DNA of 64,000 nucleotides, taken from Geobacter sp. AOG2 (GTDB lineage Bacteria; Desulfobacterota; Desulfuromonadia; Geobacterales; Pseudopelobacteraceae). Each line of letters opens with the position of its first letter. Position 1 is the first letter of the stretch. This document shows, piece after piece, positions 48,055 through 64,000 of this stretch. Location of the stretch: assembly GCF_019972295.1 (NCBI RefSeq), contig NZ_BLJA01000001.1, forward strand, positions 466,049-530,048, written 5' to 3'. Made by a program: the position numbers and the translations under genes. The notes under the pieces were generated by a model. That model searched no databases. It had not been told where the DNA came from and worked only from the letters and a program-made list of their open reading frames with translations.

Positions 48055-48152
48055 GGAAGCACGTCCGTCGCTGGTGGGCGGCCCGGTCTTCAAAACCGGT
48101 GGGGGGGATGAGAAATCGCCCCGGTGGGTTCGATTCCCATGTGCTTCCGCCA
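48055..48152 (+). tRNA. selC: tRNA-Sec (anticodon TCA)
   Basis: The 98-nt RNA has an 8-bp acceptor stem (GGAAGCAC/GTGCTTCC), anticodon arm CCGGT-CTTCAAA-ACCGG with TCA, a long G+C-rich extra arm, T-arm GGTGGGTTCGATTCCCA and encoded CCA. The long acceptor stem, large variable arm and TCA anticodon together identify selenocysteine tRNA. It lies between the LysR gene and an aminotransferase remnant leading into selB. Confidence 0.97.
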
Positions 48153-48510: not shown

Positions 48511-50417
48511 AAAACCTCATCCTCGGCACGGCCGGCCATATCGACCATGGAAAAACCTCACTGGTAAGGTGTCTGACCGGTATTGACACCGACCGGTTGA
48601 AGGAAGAAAAGGCGCGTGGGATTACCATCGAACTGGGGTTTGCCCACCTGGAACTTTCCGGGGGCATCCGGTTCGGCATCGTCGATGTCCCGGGACATGA
48701 ACGGTTCGTGCGGGCCATGGTGGCCGGCGTTGGCGGTATGGATGTCGTCATGCTGGTCGTAGCGGCCGACGAAGGGATCATGCCCCAAACAAGGGAGCAT
48801 ATGGATATCCTGCGGCTGCTTGGAGTTAAAAAAGGGTTGGTGGCCCTGACCAAGCGCGATTTGGTTGAGCGGGAATGGTTGGAACTGGTGACGGAGGAAG
48901 TGCGTGAATTCGTGGCCGGCAGTTTTTTGGAAGACGCTCCGATCATGCCGGTTTCGTCCCGCACGGCCGAAGGTCTCGAAGAGTTGAAGGCGGTCCTCGC
49001 CGATCTGGCAGGTGCCGTTGACGAAAAACGCCGCGAGGGGCAGTACCGCTTGCCGGTGGACAGGGTCTTTACCATGGCCGGTTTCGGTACCGTGGTGACC
49101 GGAACGCTCCTTTCAGGCGAGATTGCCGTGGGTGACGACCTCAAACTGCTTCCTTCGGCGAGAGAAGGCCGGGTTCGTGGCATTCAGGCCCACGGAAGGA
49201 AGGTGGAGAGAGGTCTTGCCGGCCAGCGCCTGGCGGTCAATCTGCAAGGAGTTGACCTGGACCAGGTGCATCGCGGAGACGTGGTTGTTCCGCGTGACGT
49301 GTTTCAGGCAACGCGAGCCGTGGATGTCCGCCTCGACTATCTTCCGACGGCGCCCCGGGAATTGAAGCATCGCGCGGGCGTGCGCCTCCATTCGGCCACC
49401 TATGAGGTTCAGGCCCACGTTATTTTGCTGGATCGCGATGTACTCCAGCCGGGGGACAGCGCCTATGTGCAGTTGCGTCTGAGTGAACCGGTGTTGCTGA
49501 TCTCGGGGGACAGCTACATACTGCGGACAGCCTCCCCCGCCGTAACCATAGGCGGCGGAGTAGTGCTGGATCCCTTTCCCCCCGGCCGCAGGCGCCGGAG
49601 CGAAGAAACGGTGCAACTTCTCGATTCGCTGGAAAATCAGGAGCATCAGCGTATCAGCGCCCTGATAATCGGACAGAGCAAGCTGACGGGAATTTCATTC
49701 GACGATATCCTCCTGCGCTCCGGTATCCCCCGCAAGGCGGCCGAAGCAGCGATTTCAGCACTCCTGAGTACGGGCGATATCCTTCAGATGACCCGCGAAC
49801 CACGTATTTTTCTGGCAAAGGAAGCCTTCGGGACTCTTAAGAATGGGTTAGTGGATGAAGTAAACGCTTTTTTGGCCGCCAACCCGCTGAAAGAGGGGAT
49901 AGGAAAGGAAGAGCTCAGGACGCGGCTGCCGAAGCGGAGCGATCCGCGTTTTTTTACCCCGCTCCTTTCGGCCCTGGAGCGGGACGGGTTATTGGTTCCC
50001 GAACGGGATATCGTCAGGCCGGCGGGGCGGGCTGTGCCGGCAGCCTCTCAGGCAGGCGACATGACAGCGGCCGTCTCCCTGTTTCTGCGCGAAAAAGCGC
50101 TTGAACCTTCCAGCATAAAAGAACTTATGGAGCGTCTTCACTGCAGCGAAAAATCCGTCCGGGATACCATTGCCCTTCTGACCAGAACCGGCAGCGCAGT
50201 GCGTATCGCCAGCGACCTGTTCTACGCCGGCGAGGCGTTGGAGACCCTTCGGCAGAAACTGGTACGCCATCTCCAGGAAAATGGAGGGATAACCCCGCCG
50301 GAATATCGCGAGCTGACGGGACTGTCGCGCAAATTTCTGATACCGCTTCTGGAGTATTTCGACAGCGAGAAGGTTACCATCAGGGTGGGGGATAAGCGGG
50401 TTTTACGGAGACGTTGA
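48507..50417 (+). CDS. selB: Selenocysteine-specific elongation factor SelB, copy 2
   Basis: The 636-residue product is equal in length to copy 1 at 1220. It has the same [17 protein letters not shown] and TKRD GTPase motifs, the same domain II entry [11 protein letters not shown] and the same C-terminal winged helix [16 protein letters not shown]. The most divergent part is the linker and first winged helices (about residues 365-590). The start at 48507 overlaps the stop of the aminotransferase remnant as ATGA. A GTG at 48498 is an alternative. Close linkage to tRNA-Sec suggests this is the selC-associated copy; copy 1 is a paralogue more than 45 kb away. Confidence 0.96.
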
Positions 50418-53125: not shown

Positions 53126-53416
53126 ATGGTTTGTGAGATATTCAAATGCTGCAAATTTTTCAACGATGCGATGCCGGAAATGCCCCAGGCGGCGGACTAC
53201 ATAAAAAACAAGTATTGTTTCGGGGATAACAGCTCCTGTGCCAGGTACCGCGCGTATAAGGAGCTTGGCGGAGACGACACGATGCCGGCCCCGCCGCTTT
53301 CCCTCGGCACCGACGAAATCAAGAAAATCATGCAGTGCATGAAAAGCAGGAATCTGCCGGATGACGCCGCAACCCTTCGCTCACTTCTGAACGACTACCT
53401 GAATGATGACCATTGA
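53126..53416 (+). CDS. Small conserved-looking cysteine-containing protein
   Basis: I do not recognise this 96-residue protein. Cysteines cluster in the N-terminal half (CEIFKCCKFFND, then NKYC and SSCARY) in a pattern that could bind metal or an Fe-S cluster. The C-terminal part is a short helical region (IKKIMQCMKSRNLPDD). It has no signal peptide, so it is cytosolic. GGGAG lies six nt before the ATG. It overlaps the start of the 15-haem cytochrome frame by 14 nt, so the two may be translationally coupled. Confidence 0.65.
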   Translation: MVCEIFKCCKFFNDAMPEMPQAADYIKNKYCFGDNSSCARYRAYKELGGDDTMPAPPLSLGTDEIKKIMQCMKSRNLPDDAATLRSLLNDYLNDDH

Positions 53417-54803
53417 TCGTCTTAACCCCATGAAAACCGGGGCCTCCCCATGCATCGCGGTAACGAGGCGCCTCGTATCCCTTCTCCCGGTAATGATGCT
53501 CGGCGCCACGGCAGCGGTGGCATATGCCGAAACCTGCGTGACGTCATCCTGCCATCTTTCTTTTACTACCATAAAAAACATGCATCAGCCGGTCAAAGAG
53601 AACGACTGTCTCTCCTGCCATGTGCAAAAAAACAAGGAACATCCGCTCAAAGGAGGCAAAAGCTTTGACGTGACCGCCAAGGGCGCAGCTCTGTGTTATC
53701 AGTGCCATGACGCAATGGGGAAGAAATCGGTGGTCCATGCACCGGTCAAGGACGGGGATTGCCTCTCCTGCCACAAACCCCATGGAGCAAACGGCCGCTT
53801 TCTTCTCGACGACAGCGAGGATCAGACAGGTCTCTGCCTCGGTTGCCACGACAGCGAGCCCTTCAGCCGGAAATACGCCCACGGCCCCGTGGCGAGCGGA
53901 AGTTGCACCACCTGTCACGATCCTCACCAATCCGACGGCAAGGCTCTTTTAAAAGCGGCTCCCCGTGAAACCTGCCTGGCGTGCCACGCCTATTTTGCCA
54001 AAAAAATGCAAGCCGCAACGGTCGTCCATCCGCCCGTGAAGAAGGAACCGTGCACCTCCTGCCACAACCCGCACAGCTCGGCGTGGCCCAACCTCCTGAA
54101 ACAGGCGATGCCGGACCTTTGCACGGGGTGTCACACGGAAACGGGGAAGAAGATCAGAAACAACAAAGTACCCCACAAGCCTGTCGTTAGCGGCAAACTG
54201 TGCGCCAACTGCCATACGGCGCATTTCTCCAAGGCCAAGGGGCTGCTCCAGGCCGATGACGAAAAAAGCGCCTGCCTCGGTTGTCACAATACCGATAAGC
54301 TTGGCACCCCGCCCCTGGGCAACATCAAAAAGGAACTGGATGGGAAGAAGCACCTGCATGGCCCCATTCAAAAAGCTCAATGCAGTGGCTGCCATTCGCC
54401 CCATGGCTCGGACTTCCCCAGGATACTGGCGGGAAATTACCCCAGCGACTTTTATGTTTCCTATAAAGATGGCAGCTACAGTCTGTGCATGAAATGCCAT
54501 GACAAAAATATCTTCCGTTTCTCCGAAACCACCCTCTATACGAAGTTCCGCAACGGCGGCAGGAACCTCCATTATGTACATGTCAACACCGGCAAGGGCC
54601 ATAGTTGCCGGGCTTGCCACGAGCCGCACGCCTCCAGCGGCCCCATGCTGATCAGCGCTGATGGGGCAAAGTTCGGCCAATGGCGGATCAAGAGCCGCTT
54701 TCAGCTCACCCCGACCGGGGGGAGCTGCGCTCCGGGATGTCACCGCCGGTTCAATTATGACCGGGAGACGCCCTTCGACCTTCGTATCCCCCTGAAAAAA
54801 TAG
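53403..54803 (+). CDS. Multihaem c-type cytochrome (15 potential haem sites)
   Basis: This exported cytochrome of up to 466 residues has 13 CxxCH motifs (CLSCH, CYQCH, CLSCH, CLGCH, CTTCH, CLACH, CTSCH, CTGCH, CANCH, CLGCH, CSGCH, CMKCH, CRACH). It also has one CX4CH (CVTSSCH, first cysteine directly after the signal cleavage) and one CX3CH (CAPGCH, near the end). Pairs of motifs followed by PH or AH resemble doubled cytochrome-c modules of NrfH/CymA-like or doubled-CXXCH proteins. A signal peptide ends AVAYAETC. The ATG at 53403 overlaps the preceding gene; an ATG at 53430 also gives a complete signal peptide, and neither has a clear ribosome site. Likely a periplasmic electron carrier. Confidence 0.9.
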   Translation: MMTIDRLNPMKTGASPCIAVTRRLVSLLPVMMLGATAAVAYAETCVTSSCHLSFTTIKNMHQPVKENDCLSCHVQKNKEHPLKGGKSFDVTAKGAALCYQCHDAMGKKSVVHAPVKDGDCLSCHKPHGANGRFLLDDSEDQTGLCLGCHDSEPFSRKYAHGPVASGSCTTCHDPHQSDGKALLKAAPRETCLACHAYFAKKMQAATVVHPPVKKEPCTSCHNPHSSAWPNLLKQAMPDLCTGCHTETGKKIRNNKVPHKPVVSGKLCANCHTAHFSKAKGLLQADDEKSACLGCHNTDKLGTPPLGNIKKELDGKKHLHGPIQKAQCSGCHSPHGSDFPRILAGNYPSDFYVSYKDGSYSLCMKCHDKNIFRFSETTLYTKFRNGGRNLHYVHVNTGKGHSCRACHEPHASSGPMLISADGAKFGQWRIKSRFQLTPTGGSCAPGCHRRFNYDRETPFDLRIPLKK

Positions 54804-55182: not shown

Positions 55183-55992
55183 ATGAAAAAACAGATCATT
55201 ACCCTTGTCGCCCTCGCCGGTATCGTTGCGGGCGCCACCCTGGCCTATGGAGCCGCCGGCTCCCAAGGCGGCGGCATTGTCGGCTCCAAGCATGACATGA
55301 ACGTGTTCCTTACCAACAACGGCGGCGTAAAAGATACCGACCAGCGTGTCTGCGCATACTGCCACACCCCGCACCACTCGGCCGACCCGACCCAGACCTC
55401 AACGGTAACGGTTACCGATCCGGGCACCGGTACCACGACCGACATTACGTACAACGTCTACGTGCCCCTTTGGAGCCGTGCCGTTCTCAGCACCCAGTTC
55501 GACCAGTATGTCAGCGCCACCTTCAATCCCGCAGCGGACGGCAAATTCTACGACAACATGGCAGGCCCCTCGCGCCTTTGCATGAGCTGCCATGACGGCA
55601 ACACCGCCGTTGACTCCTACTATGGGAAAACCGGCACGGTCTCGAACCTGGGCGACGACCAGATGAATTACTTCGGTTCAGGGCACTTCGCCATCGGCCA
55701 ATCGTATGGGCTTTCCAATGACCATCCGGTCGGATTCGTGTATGCCGACATGCAGGGGGATAGCAGGTATGAGTTGAAAACAGCCGATTCTTCCATAGGG
55801 GTCAAGAAGATCTCCGATGTCCTCACGAACATCGACGGAGTTGGCGCCGTCATGACCTGCGCCTCATGCCACGACGTTCATAACGGCACGGCCGTTCAGA
55901 ACACTGCACCGGCTTCCGGCCGCGGTTACTTCCTGCTCGCGGACCAGAAGGACTCCGCGCTGTGCCTGTCATGCCATGATAAGAACAAATAA
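55183..55992 (+). CDS. Exported tetrahaem c-type cytochrome
   Basis: The 269-residue protein has a signal peptide (VAGATLAYGAAG) and four CxxCH motifs: CAYCHTPH, CMSCHDG, CASCHDVH, CLSCHDKN. The N-terminal GSKHDMNVF and PLWSRA are shared with the 551-residue cytochrome at 61247, so the two are related. No lipobox is present, so it is periplasmic, surface-exposed or secreted. Four haems in a short extended protein recall the filament-forming tetrahaem type of Geobacter (OmcE), but similarity beyond haem number was not established. AGGAGG lies 11 nt before the ATG. It has its own sigma-54-type promoter, structured leader and terminator, suggesting high regulated expression. Confidence 0.92.
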   Translation: MKKQIITLVALAGIVAGATLAYGAAGSQGGGIVGSKHDMNVFLTNNGGVKDTDQRVCAYCHTPHHSADPTQTSTVTVTDPGTGTTTDITYNVYVPLWSRAVLSTQFDQYVSATFNPAADGKFYDNMAGPSRLCMSCHDGNTAVDSYYGKTGTVSNLGDDQMNYFGSGHFAIGQSYGLSNDHPVGFVYADMQGDSRYELKTADSSIGVKKISDVLTNIDGVGAVMTCASCHDVHNGTAVQNTAPASGRGYFLLADQKDSALCLSCHDKNK

Positions 55993-56052: not shown

Positions 56053-56163
56053 CTTGCCGCTATTTTATCCATGTATGCATATAAATTTATATTAAAGCGC
56101 CGCCACTGGGCGGGTTTTTCGGCGCGGCATGTGGCTGCCGTCCGAAAAAACAAGGGGGAAGGC

Positions 56164-57411
56164 ATGAGCAAAAAGGATGCAAATCAGGAACGGATGTGGA
56201 GGGCGGGTATGAAGTGGATTGCCTTGGCGCTTCTGACCATAAGCTTGACGGCCTGCGCCGGTCGATCCGGTATGAAACGGGTATTCTGGCCCGCTCCCCC
56301 CGACCTGCCGCGCGTTCAGTTTCTCAAGGCCATCAAGGACTCGACCGACGTCGTGGAGAGCAAGGCGCTGTCGCTTCTGGCTCTCAACGGCAGCAACAGC
56401 GACGATTTCATCCCATTGGTCAAACCCTATGGGGTCGCGGTGGGCAACGGCAAGGTCTATGTCTGCGACACCGTCCAGGCGGACGTCCTGATCATTGACC
56501 TCCCCAATAAAAAAATGACCCGCCTGCCGGGCAACGTCAATGCCGGACGGCTGAAAAAACCGGTAAACGTGGCGGTCGACGAGCAAGGCAACATCTATGT
56601 CGCCGATACCTCCCGGCTGGAAGTGCTGCAGTACGACCCCGAGGGCTCCTTTCTGCGCAGCTTCGGCCGGGGCAAGGATATGAAACCGGTTGCCGTGGGG
56701 GTTGAGGGGAACTTCGTCTACATCCTGGATCAGGCCAGCAGCCAGGTTCACCTTTTCGACCGGATCACCGGCGATTACCAGAAATCCATCGGCCGTGACG
56801 AAGACCCCAGAAAAGGCCTGTCCGGCCCCACCAACATGGCGACCGACGGCAAGGGGGTCCTGTATGTCTCCAACTTCGGCACCGGCCGGGTCATCAAGCT
56901 GGACCGGGACGGCAACTTCCTGATGGGTTATGGCCGTCTGGGCGTCAATTTCGGAGAATTCGGCCGCCCCCGCGGGGTTGCCGTGGATAAGGACGGCCTT
57001 GTCTACGTGGTAGATGCCGCCGCTCAACAGGTGCAGATATTCGACCCGCAGATGCGGCTGCTGATGTTCTTCGGCGCGCCGGGCACGCCGGGCTCGCTCA
57101 ACATCCCCGCCGGCATTGCCGTCACCAGCGACAATCTCGGCTATTACCAGAAGCTGGCCGCTCCGGATTTTATCCTCGATAAGGTGCTTTTCGTGGTGAG
57201 CCAGGTCGGCGATCACATGATCAATGTCTACGGCCTCGGCAAAAAACAGGGGCTCGATTACGACGCCGAGTACAGGAAGGCGCTTGCCGACCAGGAAAAG
57301 CGGGCGGCAGAGGCTGCGGAAAAGGCCCGAAAGGCCCAGGAGGGGAAAGACAAAGCCACCGGCCAACCGGCGATTGGCGAGGGCAGCGCCGACGTCCCGC
57401 CGGCACAGTAG
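56164..57411 (+). CDS. NHL-repeat beta-propeller lipoprotein 1
   Basis: The 415-residue protein has a lipoprotein signal ending SLTAC (lipobox LTAC). This is followed by six-bladed propeller NHL repeats: PYGVAVGNGKVYVCDT, PVNVAVDEQGNIYVADTSRL, PTNMATDGKGVLYVSNFGTG, PRGVAVDKDGLVYVVDAAAQ and related blades. The charged C-terminal tail (KRAAEAAEKARKAQEGKD) is coiled-coil-like. The frame is open from 55993, but the ATG at 56164 with a GGGGGAAGG site gives the lipoprotein N-terminus. NHL proteins commonly accompany Geobacter cytochrome clusters. Probable role: outer-membrane scaffold for the neighbouring cytochromes. Confidence 0.85.
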   Translation: MSKKDANQERMWRAGMKWIALALLTISLTACAGRSGMKRVFWPAPPDLPRVQFLKAIKDSTDVVESKALSLLALNGSNSDDFIPLVKPYGVAVGNGKVYVCDTVQADVLIIDLPNKKMTRLPGNVNAGRLKKPVNVAVDEQGNIYVADTSRLEVLQYDPEGSFLRSFGRGKDMKPVAVGVEGNFVYILDQASSQVHLFDRITGDYQKSIGRDEDPRKGLSGPTNMATDGKGVLYVSNFGTGRVIKLDRDGNFLMGYGRLGVNFGEFGRPRGVAVDKDGLVYVVDAAAQQVQIFDPQMRLLMFFGAPGTPGSLNIPAGIAVTSDNLGYYQKLAAPDFILDKVLFVVSQVGDHMINVYGLGKKQGLDYDAEYRKALADQEKRAAEAAEKARKAQEGKDKATGQPAIGEGSADVPPAQ

Positions 57412-57429: not shown

Positions 57430-58044
57430 GTGGAAAACACGCATATGCGCCTGCGCCGCGCCCTTTGTTGCGCCTTGTCGGCCGGCCTGATCTGGTCGGT
57501 CACGGGTTGCGACCCCCTTACCCGGCACAAGGCCCTGACCTCCATCCTCGACGGATACCCGACCCTCCCGCCTGTCGAGGAACTCTGCAAGGAACATGTG
57601 GAACGGGTCAAGGCCGCCGCCCTGAAAGACCAGGCAAACGCCGCTCCGGCACTTTCGGCGGCGGTCAGGGGGTCCGAGCACAGCCCCTACAAGGAGAAGC
57701 GCTGCAACGATTGCCACAAGGCGGACAAGGGGGGCGCGAGCGGCGGCGAAGAGGGACTGTTGGTCACGTCGCGGGAAAATCTCTGCTTCACGTGCCACAA
57801 GGACCTCCTGACCAAGCCGTTCCAGCACGGTCCCGCGGCGGTGGGCGATTGTCTGGCCTGCCACCTCCCCCACACCTCTGCCTATCCGTCGTTGCTTACC
57901 ACGAATAAAGCGGCTCTCTGTGCCAAGTGTCACACCGAGCGCCGCAAAGCCGCCCGCATGCACGACCTGTTCGCTGAAAAGGGTATAGCCTGCGACAACT
58001 GTCACGATCCCCATGCCGGGGATTCGGCCTATTTTCTGAAGTAG
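57430..58044 (+). CDS. Pentahaem cytochrome c lipoprotein
   Basis: The 204-residue protein has a lipoprotein signal with lipobox VTGC at about residues 24-27. After a ~65-residue spacer come five CxxCH motifs: CNDCHK, CFTCHK, CLACHLPH, CAKCHT, CDNCHDPH. It is probably attached to the outer membrane beside the barrel encoded next. The start is given as GTG 57430; ATG 57445 is equally possible and keeps the signal. It lies 19 nt after the NHL gene and 38 nt before the barrel gene, within one apparent operon. Confidence 0.88.
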   Translation: MENTHMRLRRALCCALSAGLIWSVTGCDPLTRHKALTSILDGYPTLPPVEELCKEHVERVKAAALKDQANAAPALSAAVRGSEHSPYKEKRCNDCHKADKGGASGGEEGLLVTSRENLCFTCHKDLLTKPFQHGPAAVGDCLACHLPHTSAYPSLLTTNKAALCAKCHTERRKAARMHDLFAEKGIACDNCHDPHAGDSAYFLK

Positions 58045-58081: not shown

Positions 58082-60103
58082 ATGAGTCCCGTCCTGATGA
58101 TCTGCAGGAACGCATCCGTCACCGTGCGGGACGCAGTCCGGTTTCTTTCGTATGGTCTTGCCGGGTTCGGCGCGGCCTTGACACTGTTCCCCGCATCTGC
58201 CGAAGCGGCCCGCTTCACCCTGCTCGGTCTGAGCGACCTGCGCCAGTCCGCGGGGCTCAGTTACAACTATAACGATAGCCTGAGCAAGGCCGGTACCACG
58301 AAAAACAGCTCGACCAATAATGACTTCAGCGAATCCTACACCATCGGCGGCGGGTATTCGATCCTGCACCCCCGCCTGCTCCGCGGCGAGGCCACCATAA
58401 CCCTCAGCGCCAATCAGATGCTGGTCAACAATACCACGGAAGGCGGCTCTACGGGTAACAACACGCACGTATCCTACAACGTCAACGGAATCATCCTCGA
58501 CCGCATGAACTATCCTTTCAATTTTTCAGCCAGTTCATCCAACGCAACAATCCGGCCGCCCTTCAGCCGGGCCTATACACTCGACACGGAGGGGCAGAGC
58601 GTTTCCTTCGGCATCCCGAACAAACATCTGCCGGTCACGTTAACCTACGACCGGAGTTCTTCGACAACCCACGGCCTTGCCGACGACATCGACCGCTCTT
58701 CCCAGACGGCATCCGTTTTGTTTCTCCACAGAACCAAAGAACTGAGCAGGACAAGACTTTTCCTGGCCCAGTCTTTTGATCGCCAGACCCTGCTCGGGAC
58801 CGGCACAACCGACAACCGTAACGATTGCAACCTCGACGCGGCCAATACCCTCTCCTGGAAAAATGTTCAAGGCTTGCACCGCCAGATCGATTCAAAGTTC
58901 GTTTACCATGAACGGAGCGGCAATTATCCGGGTTTGCAGACCTATTTCGGGTCATTCCTCAACTGGCAGATCGGGAAGGCGTTGGACAGCAATCTCTCCT
59001 ATACCAGGAACCGCAACGTGGACGAGAACCGGGCCAATAATCAGGAGAGCATCTCCGGGTCGCTCTCGCAAAAGTATCTCAAATGCCTGCTGACCAATGT
59101 GGGAGGGTCTCTCGCGCAAGGGAGCTATAACGACGGGTCGGACCGCAATGCCTCGTGGAATGCGAACATCGTCTATACGAACGAACTCGCCAGGGATGGC
59201 TCGATCAGGCTCAATTACGGTTATCAGTATACGATTCAGGAGCGCAAGCGCACGGACGTGAGCTTGACGGAGGTGGAGAAGGTTCCGCTCGGTTCCCTGT
59301 TTCCCCAATTCGTCGACTTGACGGCGAACAATATCGACAGCGGCACGGTCGCCATCTTCAAGGACGCCGGGAGAACGCTCCCCTTCAGCGACTTCAGCGT
59401 CGTGTTGTCCGGGTTCCAGACCAGGCTCCTGATCAATTCCGACCCGGGGGTCCCGATCATTTATATCAGTTACTCCTATCGTCAGAGCCCGAACATCACC
59501 TTTTCCACTTCCGGTCATACCGTCGGCGGGAGAGTTGGCCTGTTCGGGAGAAAATTCCTCCTGCACGCCAACTACAGCCACAGCGACAGCCGGATTCTCA
59601 GCGGAACCGACCCCAGCACAACGATCGGGGCGAACACCCATCTCGCCGCCGGTATCGAGAGCCTGCTCGCTCCCCATACGGTATCGCTCGAATATTCGCT
59701 CAACAAGAGCGTGTACCAGAACCTCCAGCATATCGAGGCGCTCTGGACGCACACCCTGTCCGGGGGCAAGGCTTCGCTTCTCACCAAGGCGAACGAGCGT
59801 TATTCGTGGTACGAAAACACCGCCGCAGGCGCATCAAACTCGCAGGGATGGGACAACACCTTTCTTTTGTCCACCGCCTACAGCCGCTTGATCGCGCAGA
59901 ATTTCAAGGGCAAGGCGACCTTGGGCTACTACAATCTGTTCACGGCTTCCGCCACCAGTAACAGGTTCAGTATCGAACTCGGCCTGGAAGGCAACTTCGG
60001 CCGAACGGTCGTCACGCTTGATTCCTCGGCGAACTGGGGGGTCTCGTCATCCGGCTACAGCCGAAGCCAGTCCGTTACCCTGAATGTACGGAGGATATTC
60101 TGA
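58082..60103 (+). CDS. Outer-membrane beta-barrel of the cytochrome cluster
   Basis: The 673-residue protein has a signal peptide (FPASAEAARF) and then continuous amphipathic beta strands (SAGLSYNYNDSLSKAG, NTHVSYNVNGIILDRMN, FSVVLSGFQTRLLINSDPG, RVGLFGRKFLLHANYSHSDS). It ends SVTLNVRRIF with the terminal Phe of outer-membrane proteins. The size suggests 20 or more strands, in the range of porins that sheath cytochromes (MtrB, OmbB, ExtD). No sequence match to those was recognised, and there is no N-terminal CXXC as in MtrB. It sits between a pentahaem lipoprotein and an NHL lipoprotein (1-nt overlap with the latter). A porin-cytochrome conduit role is inference from context. Confidence 0.8.
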   Translation: MSPVLMICRNASVTVRDAVRFLSYGLAGFGAALTLFPASAEAARFTLLGLSDLRQSAGLSYNYNDSLSKAGTTKNSSTNNDFSESYTIGGGYSILHPRLLRGEATITLSANQMLVNNTTEGGSTGNNTHVSYNVNGIILDRMNYPFNFSASSSNATIRPPFSRAYTLDTEGQSVSFGIPNKHLPVTLTYDRSSSTTHGLADDIDRSSQTASVLFLHRTKELSRTRLFLAQSFDRQTLLGTGTTDNRNDCNLDAANTLSWKNVQGLHRQIDSKFVYHERSGNYPGLQTYFGSFLNWQIGKALDSNLSYTRNRNVDENRANNQESISGSLSQKYLKCLLTNVGGSLAQGSYNDGSDRNASWNANIVYTNELARDGSIRLNYGYQYTIQERKRTDVSLTEVEKVPLGSLFPQFVDLTANNIDSGTVAIFKDAGRTLPFSDFSVVLSGFQTRLLINSDPGVPIIYISYSYRQSPNITFSTSGHTVGGRVGLFGRKFLLHANYSHSDSRILSGTDPSTTIGANTHLAAGIESLLAPHTVSLEYSLNKSVYQNLQHIEALWTHTLSGGKASLLTKANERYSWYENTAAGASNSQGWDNTFLLSTAYSRLIAQNFKGKATLGYYNLFTASATSNRFSIELGLEGNFGRTVVTLDSSANWGVSSSGYSRSQSVTLNVRRIF

Positions 60104-61188
60104 TGAAACGCACCGCGACCCACGCAGGAAGGGAACGATTGCCGCGGGGGACCGCACTTGCCGTGGCATGGCTCCTGGCGTTCGCCCTCGTGGCGGGGAC
60201 GGTGGGGTGTGCCGCCGTCTCCGGGCCGAACACGGCAACCACGCTCGACAAGATCGTCTGGCCGCCTCCCCCCATGCCGCCCCGCGTCGTCTGGGTCCAG
60301 TCCCTTGCTACCGCCGATGACGCCGGGATCCGCAAAGGCTTCTGGAGCAGGTTGTGGGGCGCCGTCTTCGGTGAGGAGGTGATACGCATTACCCGTCCCT
60401 ACGGCCTTCACGTGGATGACAAGAACCGGATACTCATCGCCGATGCGGGCGGCAGGGCCATCCATGTCATCGACCGGGCTTCAGGACGGTACGAACTGGT
60501 CAGGGGACAGGAGGGAAACCGGTTTTCATCGCCTATCGGCATCGCGGAGGATGCCGGCGAAATGGTCTACGTGAGCGACTCGGCGGCGGGGAAAATCTAT
60601 CGGTTCAATCTTGACGACCTCCGGGTTGAACCGTTCATTACCCACGGTTTGCAGCGGCCTACCGGCATCGTCTACAACCCGCGCAACAACCTGCTGTACG
60701 TAAGCGATACCCTGGCGGGGCAGATCGCGGCCTTCACCATCAAAGGAGCGGAGGCCTTTCGTTTCGGCATGCCCGGCGAAAATCCGGGCCAGTTCAACCG
60801 TCCCACCGACCTGACGGTCGATGGCCAGGGGCGTATTTTCGTGACCGACGCCCTTAATGGCCGGGTGCAGATCTTTTCTGCGGATGGCGCCTACCTGAAA
60901 GGCTTCGGCAAACTGGGCAACGCATCGGGGCTCTTTGCCAAACCCAAGGGGATCGGCATCGACAGTGACGGGCACATGCATATCTGCGATGCGCTCTTCG
61001 ATACGGTTCAGATATTTGATGAAGATGGGCAGTTCCTGCTCAGCTACGGCAACAGAGGCGGCGGCAAAGGCGAACTCTGGATGCCGTCGGGGCTTTACAT
61101 CGATCGCAACGACTTCATCTACGTAGCCGATACCTACAACAACAGGCTCCAGGTGTTCCGGTACATCCGGGAACCACGGGGAAATTAG
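60103..61188 (+). CDS. NHL-repeat beta-propeller lipoprotein 2
   Basis: The 361-residue protein has a lipoprotein signal (lipobox TVGC at about residues 33-36) and about six NHL blades: PYGLHVDDKNRILIADAGG, PIGIAEDAGEMVYVSDSAAG, PTGIVYNPRNNLLYVSDT, PTDLTVDGQGRIFVTDALNG, PKGIGIDSDGHMHICDALF, PSGLYIDRNDFIYVADTYN. It shares the WPAPPDLPR/WPPPPMPPR segment after the lipid anchor with NHL protein 1, so the two are paralogues. The start codon overlaps the barrel stop (TGATG). It probably caps or scaffolds the same outer-membrane complex. Confidence 0.88.
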   Translation: MKRTATHAGRERLPRGTALAVAWLLAFALVAGTVGCAAVSGPNTATTLDKIVWPPPPMPPRVVWVQSLATADDAGIRKGFWSRLWGAVFGEEVIRITRPYGLHVDDKNRILIADAGGRAIHVIDRASGRYELVRGQEGNRFSSPIGIAEDAGEMVYVSDSAAGKIYRFNLDDLRVEPFITHGLQRPTGIVYNPRNNLLYVSDTLAGQIAAFTIKGAEAFRFGMPGENPGQFNRPTDLTVDGQGRIFVTDALNGRVQIFSADGAYLKGFGKLGNASGLFAKPKGIGIDSDGHMHICDALFDTVQIFDEDGQFLLSYGNRGGGKGELWMPSGLYIDRNDFIYVADTYNNRLQVFRYIREPRGN

Positions 61189-61246: not shown

Positions 61247-62878
61247 ATGCAGAAGATTTCGCAGCCGGCGACACTCGTAATAGCGGCTTTGGCCCTGGCG
61301 ATCATCGCTCCGGGCACGTCCGTGGCTACTGGAATACTGAACAGCAAACACAACCTGTCCATATCGGGGCCCGGCACCATCAAGGCCGTCAGCGAAGAGC
61401 GGGTCTGCGTTTTCTGTCACACGCCCCATCACGCGAACCCCTTGACACCGCTCTGGAGCCGCCCGACCAGCACCGCCATCTACGACCTCTACCAATCCTC
61501 GACCCTGGTGGCGAAACCGGGGCAGCCGAGCGGCTCCGCACGCCTCTGCCTCAGCTGTCACGACGGCACCATCGCCCTGGGGGCCTTTTACGGTTCGTCG
61601 GAAAGCATCCCGATGGCCGGGGGAATAACCTCCATGCCGACCGGCAACCCGACCAACCTGAAAACCGACCTGCGTGACGACCATCCCATATCCTTTGCCT
61701 TCACCAACGAGTTGGCCCTGCAGAACGGCCAGCTCAATCCGCCCGGTTCCCTTCCTCACGCGGTCCGGCTCGAAGAGGGGGGAATGCTTCAATGCACCGC
61801 CTGCCACAACCCCCATAGCGATACCTACGGCAAGTTCCTGGTTATGAATAACTCCGACTCGGCTCTGTGCAAGGCCTGCCACAGCATAACCGGATGGAAC
61901 GCCTCCATCCATGCCACCGCCGGTCAAGGGGCGGGCTGCACCCTCTGCCACGCCAGCCATAATGCCGGCAGAAACGAGCGGCTGCTCAAATTCGCCGACG
62001 AGGAGGCCAACTGTTATCAGTGCCATTCGGCAACCGGCGGGGCGGCGGATATAGCAACCGTAACCAACAAGTTCTACAATCATCCCGTGAGCGCGACCAC
62101 CGGCGTCCACGACCCCGGCGAAAATCCGCTGACCGCCTCGAAGCATGTGGAATGCGAAGACTGCCACAACCCCCACCAGGTGCAGACGGCGTCTGCGGCA
62201 GCCCCGGCCGTCTCCGGTTCCCTGGTAGGGGTCAAAGGGGTTTCGAGCAGCGGTGCGGTGCTCCCCACAGCCGCCACCAACGAGTTTGAGATCTGTTTTC
62301 GGTGCCATGCCGAGAATAGTTTTTACGCCACGCAGACCATCGTCAGGCAGATTCAGGAACTCAATACGCGTCTGGACTTCGATACCTCGAACCCCTCCTT
62401 TCACCCCGTGGTGGCCATCGGCAAGGGCGGCAACGTACCAAGCCTGCGCATCCAGTACAGCACCAGCAGTATGATCTACTGCTGCGACTGCCACGCCAAC
62501 GACGACAGCAGCCAACCCAAGGGGCCGCACGGTTCCAACTACAAGCATATCCTGGTTGCCCGTTATGAAACCGACATCTACCCGCTCGCCTACAGCGAGG
62601 CCAATTATGCCCTCTGCTTCCGCTGCCACGATCAGAATATTGTGCTTGATCCCGCCAAGTCCGCGTTTCCGGCCCACCAGCAACATGTGGTTACCCACCA
62701 GGTCCCCTGCTCGGTCTGCCATGACCCCCACGGCGTCCCGCAGGCCCGCGGCGCCACCGTGGCCGCCAACTCCCATCTGATCAATTTCGACCTCCGGTTT
62801 GTCACTTCGGGGACATACGATTCCTCCGCCCGGAGCTGTACGGTGAGTTGCCATGCAGCGAATCCCAAGTATTACTGA
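61247..62878 (+). CDS. Multihaem c-type cytochrome (12 potential haem sites)
   Basis: The 543-residue exported protein has a signal peptide (IIAPGTSVATG) and 11 CxxCH motifs: CVFCH, CLSCH, CTACH, CKACH, CTLCH, CYQCH, CEDCH, CFRCH, CCDCH, CFRCH and CSVCH. A final CX3CH (CTVSCH) lies eight residues from the end. Its first 120 residues resemble the tetrahaem cytochrome (SKHNLSI, VCVFCHTPHH, PLWSRP, RLCLSCHDG). There is no lipobox. The TTG at 61223 is rejected in favour of ATG 61247, which follows AGGGGG. It is the last gene of the operon starting at 56164 (59 nt after NHL 2). Likely the long electron wire of the complex or a secreted partner. Confidence 0.92.
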   Translation: MQKISQPATLVIAALALAIIAPGTSVATGILNSKHNLSISGPGTIKAVSEERVCVFCHTPHHANPLTPLWSRPTSTAIYDLYQSSTLVAKPGQPSGSARLCLSCHDGTIALGAFYGSSESIPMAGGITSMPTGNPTNLKTDLRDDHPISFAFTNELALQNGQLNPPGSLPHAVRLEEGGMLQCTACHNPHSDTYGKFLVMNNSDSALCKACHSITGWNASIHATAGQGAGCTLCHASHNAGRNERLLKFADEEANCYQCHSATGGAADIATVTNKFYNHPVSATTGVHDPGENPLTASKHVECEDCHNPHQVQTASAAAPAVSGSLVGVKGVSSSGAVLPTAATNEFEICFRCHAENSFYATQTIVRQIQELNTRLDFDTSNPSFHPVVAIGKGGNVPSLRIQYSTSSMIYCCDCHANDDSSQPKGPHGSNYKHILVARYETDIYPLAYSEANYALCFRCHDQNIVLDPAKSAFPAHQQHVVTHQVPCSVCHDPHGVPQARGATVAANSHLINFDLRFVTSGTYDSSARSCTVSCHAANPKYY

Positions 62879-63404: not shown

Positions 63405-64000
63405 ATGAAACGATTGAGAATCAAAACGGGCCTGCTGACGGCGACAACCGCTGCCAGCCTGGTCCTGGCGGCAGGCACTTCGTTTGCCGCCCATCCTCCG
63501 GTCACGCTCTATACCTTCGAGGAAATCGGCATGCAAATGGCCGGTGGAGCGAAAGTGCCGGTCCAGGTCGATGCAAACGGCAACGGCATGCCCTACAGCC
63601 CGAAGCAGACCTGCGGCACCGCAGGCTGCCACGTGATGAACGGCGTCGATTACACCTACGACAAGATCTCCGACCACGCGTTCCATTCGAACCAAGGGAG
63701 AAGTGAGTACTCCGATTCTTCCGACGGAAAATTCGATGCCACCAAGAACAAGCCATGGACCCAGTCGACCGCCATGGTCGGCAAGTGGTGAAGCCCCTCT
63801 CTTCGCCAGGTGGCGAACCTCATGAATCAAAATCCCGGCAACTCGACTATCTCCTCATTAAATTACGTTGATAATTTGAGCAATTTCATATCCGGCAGCA
63901 GCAGTACGGTCACCGCCGGTTCAACAACGAACACCGGAAGCCAGTTTACCATGGTCGATCTTTCGGTATGGGACCTGTCGACAACCTGCGGCAGCTGCCA
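63405..64000 (+). CDS. Selenocysteine-containing multihaem cytochrome c, partial at right edge
   Basis: From ATG 63405 the frame encodes a signal peptide (LAAGTSFAAH), a CX4CH haem motif C70-GTAG-C75-H76 and NKPWTQSTAMVGKW. It then meets TGA at codon 129 (63789-63791). In the same frame it stays open to the window end for 69 more codons: SPSLRQVANLMNQ and onward, closing with TCGSC plus the first two bases of a His codon, a second haem motif. A perfect 6-bp hairpin with loop AGGT begins 10 nt after the TGA. tRNA-Sec and two selB genes are in the window. Together this points to Sec129 rather than a stop. Alternatives: a nonsense mutation of a Cys codon, or a second gene from ATG 63834, which has only a weak ribosome site. 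Confidence 0.78.
63802..63817 (+). promoter_or_regulatory. Putative bacterial SECIS hairpin in the cytochrome gene
   Basis: TTCGCC and GGCGAA pair perfectly around the loop AGGT, which starts 17 nt after the UGA. A G at loop position 2 and a GGU in the apical loop agree with known bacterial SECIS loops such as that of E. coli fdhF. The stem shares TTCGC/GCGAA with the hairpin at 13993. Confidence 0.7.

Follow-up and report, generated by a model that had tools for sequence, protein, structure and literature searches.

A UGA codon inside the frame of a multihaem cytochrome c of Geobacter sp. AOG2 is almost certainly decoded as selenocysteine (Sec). The gene starts at position 63405 of the window, i.e. 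the whole stretch of 64,000 nucleotides that was analysed (C1:466049-530048 of the 3.92 Mb genome, which consists of one contig), and the UGA is its codon 129. As the role of this residue, we propose that Sec129 is part of a catalytic Sec-Lys-haem site on an exported octahaem reductase; judged from the comparative evidence, the probability of this reading is about 55%. The following features of the window concern the codon and its decoding:

1232-1369, - strand: second SelB C-terminal domain, within a 676-aa frame (coordinates converted from the genome match)
48055-48152, + strand: tRNA-Sec, anticodon tca
50265-50405, + strand: SelB C-terminal winged-helix domain, within a 696-aa frame (coordinates converted from the genome match)
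63405-64000, + strand: 5' part of the Sec-cytochrome gene, with signal peptide, haem 1 (CX4CH), Sec129 and, at the window edge, haem 2
63789-63791, + strand: TGA read as Sec, codon 129 of the frame from the ATG at 63405, motif GKW-U-SPSLRQV
63802-63817, + strand: SECIS-like hairpin of 6 bp, loop AGGT at 63808-63811, covarying across 59 distinct homologous sequences

The initial annotation had described the frame as open through the UGA up to the window edge, where a second haem motif is cut. Both were seen again, the motif being that of haem 2 (C195), and in the genome the frame stays open until it ends with a TAA. The gene extends to C1:533169 and encodes 1238 amino acids with this single in-frame TGA. 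Extension of the sequence to the right also bore out the multihaem claim, since eight motifs were counted, namely seven CXXCH (C195, 299, 373, 548, 613, 674 and 915) and a CX4CH as haem 1 (C70-H76). The protein is predicted to carry eight haems and, according to a signal peptide recognized by eye, to be exported. A PKD domain is located at the C-terminus (Pfam PKD_4, E 6.2e-9); besides this domain, no Pfam or NCBIfam model reached its cut-off. The third-position excess of the frame persists 3' of the UGA. In the closest pair of sequences, the differing codons among codons 130-198 were 13 synonymous and 13 non-synonymous ones, which marks this part as less constrained. A motif search of the own genome returned the Sec-cytochrome site and three further sites, none of these three in a cytochrome frame.

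Decoding of codon 129

A search of 97 related genomes gave a match in 26, some of them to the PKD end only. Of the match rows printed, 33 extend across the codon, and each of these contained a single TGA and no other stop (hand count), with the motif GKWU-x-PS and identities from 90% downward. A read-level error at 63789-63791, which the initial annotation had considered, is excluded by these independent genomes, and an assembly error as the source of the TGA was likewise rejected. The column was then read in ORFs that have five or more haem motifs downstream of it, with the column masked in the profile and repeats of one gene included. In 142 such ORFs it held Sec (114), Cys (19) or Ser (9) and nothing else. 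The alignment of homologues, which had been recommended along with the selenocysteine claim, thus revealed neither an unrelated residue nor a gap, and the claim is strongly supported. The UGA is read as Sec because the homologous column holds only UGA, Cys or Ser.

If translation ended at the UGA, the gene would consist of a short secreted protein with one haem and a separate large ORF behind it. Standard ORF calling does split the gene at this point, and several relatives likewise. Against this, the Cys and Ser members of the 142 ORFs are continuous, a covarying hairpin follows the UGA, and no signal peptide was recognized by eye in the downstream ORF, though attachment of haem c is extracytoplasmic. 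Moreover, the UGA lies mid-protein, about 400-600 codons in, in two loci (L070, frame from 3501, and L049, frame from 3) in which a Sec cytochrome is apparently fused behind an upstream haem-containing sequence. On the evidence of column, hairpin and fusions, the stop codon was rejected as very improbable. The insertion of another residue, either Trp or by unspecific readthrough, is more improbable still: the non-UGA relatives that were read carry Cys or Ser and never Trp, and SelB, SelA and tRNA-Sec are present in the genome. A reassigned UGA was rejected for these two reasons.

The tRNA-Sec and the two selB genes, which had been reported for the window, were all found. They include both SelB-type genes of the genome, and the copy at 50265-50405 (+) lies about 2 kb from the tRNA-Sec; SelA is encoded outside the window. 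SelA was detected in 47 of 50 genomes with a TGA copy versus 366 of 394 overall, and three genomes of 90-91% completeness (G178, G298 and G437) possess a TGA copy with no SelA match. The co-occurrence of SelA is non-discriminating and gives no support for the Sec reading. Decoding would proceed by the cell's own SelB and tRNA-Sec via the hairpin downstream of the UGA, a step that is strongly supported.

The 6-bp hairpin with the loop AGGU, noticed earlier past the UGA, was confirmed at 63802-63817. Its loop starts 16 nt after the UGA, and its energy is -7.8 kcal/mol. It agrees with the bacterial SECIS model as printed in the available part of PMC13188914, which asks for G within the first two positions of the loop, a distance of 16-37 nt between UGA and loop and an MFE <= -7.5; several homologous hairpins are weaker than -7.5. 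Most Sec genes share a loop A-G-[GTA]-T, 16 nt past the UGA, on a GC-rich stem, and weak or divergent stems occur in some (L121, L123, L132 and L133). Two extra codons displace the hairpin by 6 nt in the C-type genes, and in the Cys gene of Desulfocapsa it is lost.

In the 59 distinct sequences, 90.7% of the cells were paired versus 81.5% in shuffles, and 37 double changes were counted versus 12.3. The covariation score was reached by 0 of 500 shuffles and had its maximum at slide 0. Two of five covariation measures were unexceptional: 63 of 500 shuffles reached the observed count of pairs with double changes, and 400 of 500 that of pair types. The stem covaries at its lowest pair (CG/UA) and the next one (UA/CG/GC), with rare changes above. 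Conservation of the hairpin is partly due to constraint on the protein (R-Q-L-A). All 57 scored Sec rows have TTG as the codon of the loop Leu after R-Q, versus one of ten Cys and one of six Ser rows (L099 and L090 being the exceptions among non-Sec rows); five Sec rows were unscorable, one of which, L123, has CTT at a nearby Leu. This codon bias would stand against protein constraint as the sole cause.

Statistics on the single sequence were rejected as proof of Sec, as a loose bacterial SECIS test was passed by 346 of 1810 TGAs in the window (the exact geometry by 2 of 1810) and the 65-nt fold gave z = 0.20. Taken alone, the hairpin of the window is weak evidence. Across the homologous sequences, conservation of the UGA together with the hairpin exceeds chance by far.

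The phylum sample comprised 394 genomes of 248 genera. Matches at E <= 1e-10 were obtained in 95 genomes and 62 genera; 66 match rows from 50 genomes contained one TGA, and TAA or TAG occurred in none (hand count). Thirty loci from this search, the own gene included, were read at the column, with 26 U and four Cys: the TGA was situated in the Sec column in all 26 TGA loci, and all four TGA-free loci had Cys. When the GTDB genome collection was scanned with the N-domain alignment, at least 71 loci were obtained, 80 of 120 relatives being kept; organisms are named after the titles of their records. UGA occurs at the column in Geobacterales, Desulfuromonadales, Desulfobulbaceae, Calditrichota, one Nitrospirota MAG, Ammonifex and others, and Cys in Zixibacteria, Ignavibacteria, Bacteroidota, Acidobacteria, Verrucomicrobia and Myxococcales MAGs; of the two copies in a Desulfocapsa MAG, one has Cys. 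The 118 distinct rows (92 Sec, 19 Cys, 7 Ser) required at least eight state changes on a tree that was made by a quick search and contains several long branches.

Three paralogue families possess the UGA, with the motifs GKWU-x-PSLRQ (A), G-x-WUPPSARQL (B) and GKWUPPSSD (C). A further paralogue lacks the UGA and has Ser at this position (GKWSP or similar motifs, with TCC, TCG or TCT as the codon). It is clustered with UGA genes at L040, L045, L054 and L055, and at L042 it is the sole such gene on the fetched stretch. As this Ser paralogue (7 of 118 rows) demonstrates, not every member of the family depends on the selenol.

Relation to octahaem tetrathionate reductase

The octahaem core also occurs in compact relatives from Syntrophobacterales, Calditrichota, Ammonifex and others. 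Three of nine scanned compact proteins (L103, L117 and L120) have a C-terminal cytochrome b561/FDH-gamma-like quinone domain with TIGR01583 over its cut-off, which suggests direct coupling to quinones.

The window protein gave no match to the model of octahaem tetrathionate reductase (OTR, TIGR04315) at E <= 1. The best score among nine relatives scanned was 50.4 bits, with a curated cut-off of 375 bits, and the compact homologue L103 matched below the cut-off with E 1.8e-13; membership in OTR proper was rejected. Global hhalign of the family versus OTR gave 99.7%, to which the haem motifs contribute; the region of haems 1-2 alone gave 25% and left the Sec site of the family and the OTR site unpaired. 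In mixed alignments of 39 compact family rows and 37 OTR rows (three MAFFT modes, the window protein not among the rows), the eight haems follow the same order, and their modal columns coincide in 24-31 of the 39 family rows and in all 37 OTR rows. The lysine of the KRG motif of the family falls into the OTR lysine column in 33 of 39 and 37 of 37 rows, respectively, and within the family Lys is found there in 99% of 118 rows. Weak NrfA matches were obtained with the compact core. From these profile and alignment comparisons, the core of the Sec-cytochrome family appears to be a remote relative of OTR.

The OTR proteins themselves have a comparable site. Twelve OTR loci from relatives have one more conserved Cys in the interval from haem 1 to haem 2, and OTR rows from the search of 394 genomes (E <= 1e-90) showed one TGA in 30 of 86 cases and TAA or TAG in none (hand count). 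The 40 loci that were read all have C (29) or U (11) at the site N-x-[FYW]-C/U (in-frame TGA at L185, L189, L190, L191, L195, L199, L201, L203, L206, L208 and L209). Counted along the alignment, this site is residue 64 of 1sp3, with Asp150 and Lys153 further on. We take Cys64 to lie in the pocket of the active-site haem, of which Lys153 is presumably a ligand. A literature search on Cys64 of OTR found nothing.

The family Sec shares with the OTR Cys or Sec the interval between haems 1 and 2 and the position after an aromatic residue. With Sec and Cys masked, the family column and Cys64 of OTR were not aligned, and they coincided only when both were written as Cys; the equivalence of the two sites would be a topological one. 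Because the masked alignments keep the Sec sites in separate columns, a likeness of working is claimed here and not membership. The differences are as follows: the window protein has 1238 amino acids versus 440 positions of the TIGR04315 model, its Sec precedes haem 2 by 66 residues versus 10 or 15 in OTR, the flanking motif is GKWUSPSLRQ versus NNFU, the stretch from haem 4 to KRG is about 150 residues longer in the window protein, and this protein has the PKD domain. The own genome also encodes an octahaem OTR-like protein (C1:2705516-2706688; E 1.7e-40, below the cut-off).

Possible role of Sec129 and its genomic context

The initial annotation had offered a haem ligand, a redox switch or a metal-binding site as roles of the selenol. 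Judged by comparison with relatives, Sec129 is more likely to be part of a catalytic haem site; of the roles offered, the distal ligand is retained as an alternative. According to the preferred reading, Sec129 would sit in the catalytic pocket of a Lys-ligated haem (the ligand being Lys531, in the column of Lys153 of OTR), placed as Cys64 or Sec is in OTR, and may help to bind or reduce a substrate containing sulfur, selenium or nitrogen. As a first guess, sulfur or selenium oxyanions could serve as substrates, because of the likeness to OTR and the link to selenite proposed for ExtKL in the available part of PMC5877670.

Eight proximal His are accompanied by five conserved non-motif His (94, 543, 640, 668 and 901). 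In a sixth column, 92% of the compact rows have His and 93% of the A-type rows have Cys (Cys582), and Lys531 and Sec129 are the other conserved candidates for ligands. These numbers fit one Lys-ligated haem with Sec near or on a haem and are compatible with catalysis as well as with ligation. AlphaFold models were poor for the compact core A2 (pLDDT 58) and the A-type core A4 (pLDDT 55), and Foldseek with both models returned no match at E <= 0.001. A PDB sequence search with the N-domain profile yielded matches to single-haem cytochromes only, with E 0.33 or worse.

The same count of ligands allows for the possibility that residue 129 (Sec or Cys) binds one haem as its distal axial ligand and tunes the potential of this haem, so that the protein would be a wire and not an enzyme: five His and the His/Cys582 column are available for eight haems, Lys531 and Sec129 are the obvious remaining candidates, and the operon has the look of an electron conduit. 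The distant OTR, termed a respiratory enzyme in the title of Mowat 2004 (as cited in the available part of PMC8840924), nevertheless keeps Cys or Sec and Lys between the same haems, and the Ser paralogue would be devoid of this ligand. We regard the axial ligand as rather unlikely. A metal- or substrate-binding site beside the haem, comparable to the haem-copper centre of the sulfite reductase MccA, is clearly less probable than that. The octahaem cytochrome MccA has copper at the active site (PMC6703420, available part), and the stretched haem 1 motif of the A family has a counterpart in MccA and SirA, whose motif is also stretched (PMC6976685, available part). In the A family, the Cys-Cys spacing of haem 1 varies among genomes (CXnCH, n from 2 to 14), which is unusual within one family. 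On the other hand, many of the compact members with Sec have a plain CXXCH at haem 1, and no second conserved free Cys common to all members was identified.

Upstream of the Sec-cytochrome gene, the following genes are oriented in the same direction:

53403-54800, + strand: cytochrome with 13 CXXCH (doubled-CXXCH type)
55183-55989, + strand: cytochrome with 4 CXXCH
56155-57408, + strand: NHL-repeat protein (start picked by us within a longer ORF)
57430-58041, + strand: cytochrome with 5 CXXCH
58082-60100, + strand: 673-aa protein, probable outer-membrane beta-barrel (judged from sequence and neighbours)
60103-61185, + strand: NHL-repeat protein
61247-62875, + strand: cytochrome with 11 CXXCH, directly upstream of the Sec-cytochrome gene (start picked by us)

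For the probable barrel protein, neither Pfam nor NCBIfam gave a match at the thresholds used. This arrangement resembles a porin-cytochrome conduit, and electrons would arrive at the Sec cytochrome, which may be located at the cell surface, through these neighbouring proteins. Downstream of the gene, an ArsR-type regulator (L003:14378-14665) and a PPIC-type peptidyl-prolyl isomerase (L003:14763-15770) are encoded.

Known selenocysteine cytochromes and significance

The earlier statement that no characterised case was known is too strong. Two such proteins have been listed before, namely ExtKL, a pentahaem cytochrome with a predicted Sec, and a Sec cytochrome of the OTR type; both are outside the Sec-cytochrome family. 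According to the available parts of the papers, a study of 2007 proposed that GSU2937-2936 is a selenoprotein and found no SECIS for it (PMC1914089); the protein is named ExtKL (PMC5877670, PMC6148476) and was studied by an anti-ExtKL Western blot in 2018 (PMC5877670). A 2026 review and catalogue of selenoproteins comprises 119 families or subfamilies, and the cytochrome or CXXCH entries in its available part are ExtKL, the GSU2204-type and a GenBank-annotated OTR (PMC13188914). That part also contains unnamed hypothetical families, and their NCBIfam models are absent from the five listed for the window protein. In the literature on selenocysteine or selenoproteins and cytochromes, no paper was recognized as describing the family, the search covering openly available main texts.

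ExtKL (NF040886) has in common with the window protein a predicted Sec, a multihaem cytochrome c, the occurrence in Geobacter and a gene beside that of an outer-membrane porin-like protein. It is, however, pentahaem, its Sec is located C-terminal of the haems in the unrelated motif GHxIPDGUPTPN, and it belongs to a separate operon. The assignment of the window protein to ExtKL was rejected, as both the profile match and this motif are absent, and the own genome contains no ExtKL over the cut-off. The GSU2204-type (NF041027) likewise has an entry in the available part of the 2026 catalogue, where it is given as a CXXCH protein that contains Sec, but as an outer-membrane beta-barrel type. This assignment was rejected too, with no match listed for the window protein; a GSU2204-type match of the own genome (82.8 of 350 bits) lies elsewhere. 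MccA, SirA and OcwA are multihaem reductases of the NrfA superfamily and are set beside the window protein by description; the available parts of their descriptions do not mention Sec (PMC6703420, PMC6976685). OcwA, of the NrfA/MccA superfamily, is described as a terminal reductase at the cell surface (PMC6703420, available part) and is a precedent for catalysis there; the NrfA superfamily therefore does serve extracellular electron transfer.

The Sec-cytochrome family was found in none of the catalogues and libraries searched and is very likely new to them. More tentatively, and with somewhat less than even odds, it may constitute an uncatalogued family of selenium-dependent octahaem reductases in several phyla, in which Sec or Cys by a Lys-ligated haem would be catalytic and the giant PKD members would be extracellular and fed by a conduit. 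As standard ORF calling splits the genes at the UGA, the database entries of many members are probably cytochromes that are truncated or headless.

The multihaem cytochromes found in electroactive bacteria are usually regarded as wires. A position for Sec, Cys or Ser that is kept throughout the family (92 distinct Sec members) points to chemistry at a defined site and offers a testable reason why electroactive bacteria use selenium. Since Sec, Cys and Ser forms exist among the relatives, the role of selenium at the haem can be tested by exchange of the residue. If the more tentative reading of extracellular, conduit-fed reductases is true, the cells would reduce sulfur, selenium or another substrate extracellularly with a selenol-haem centre.
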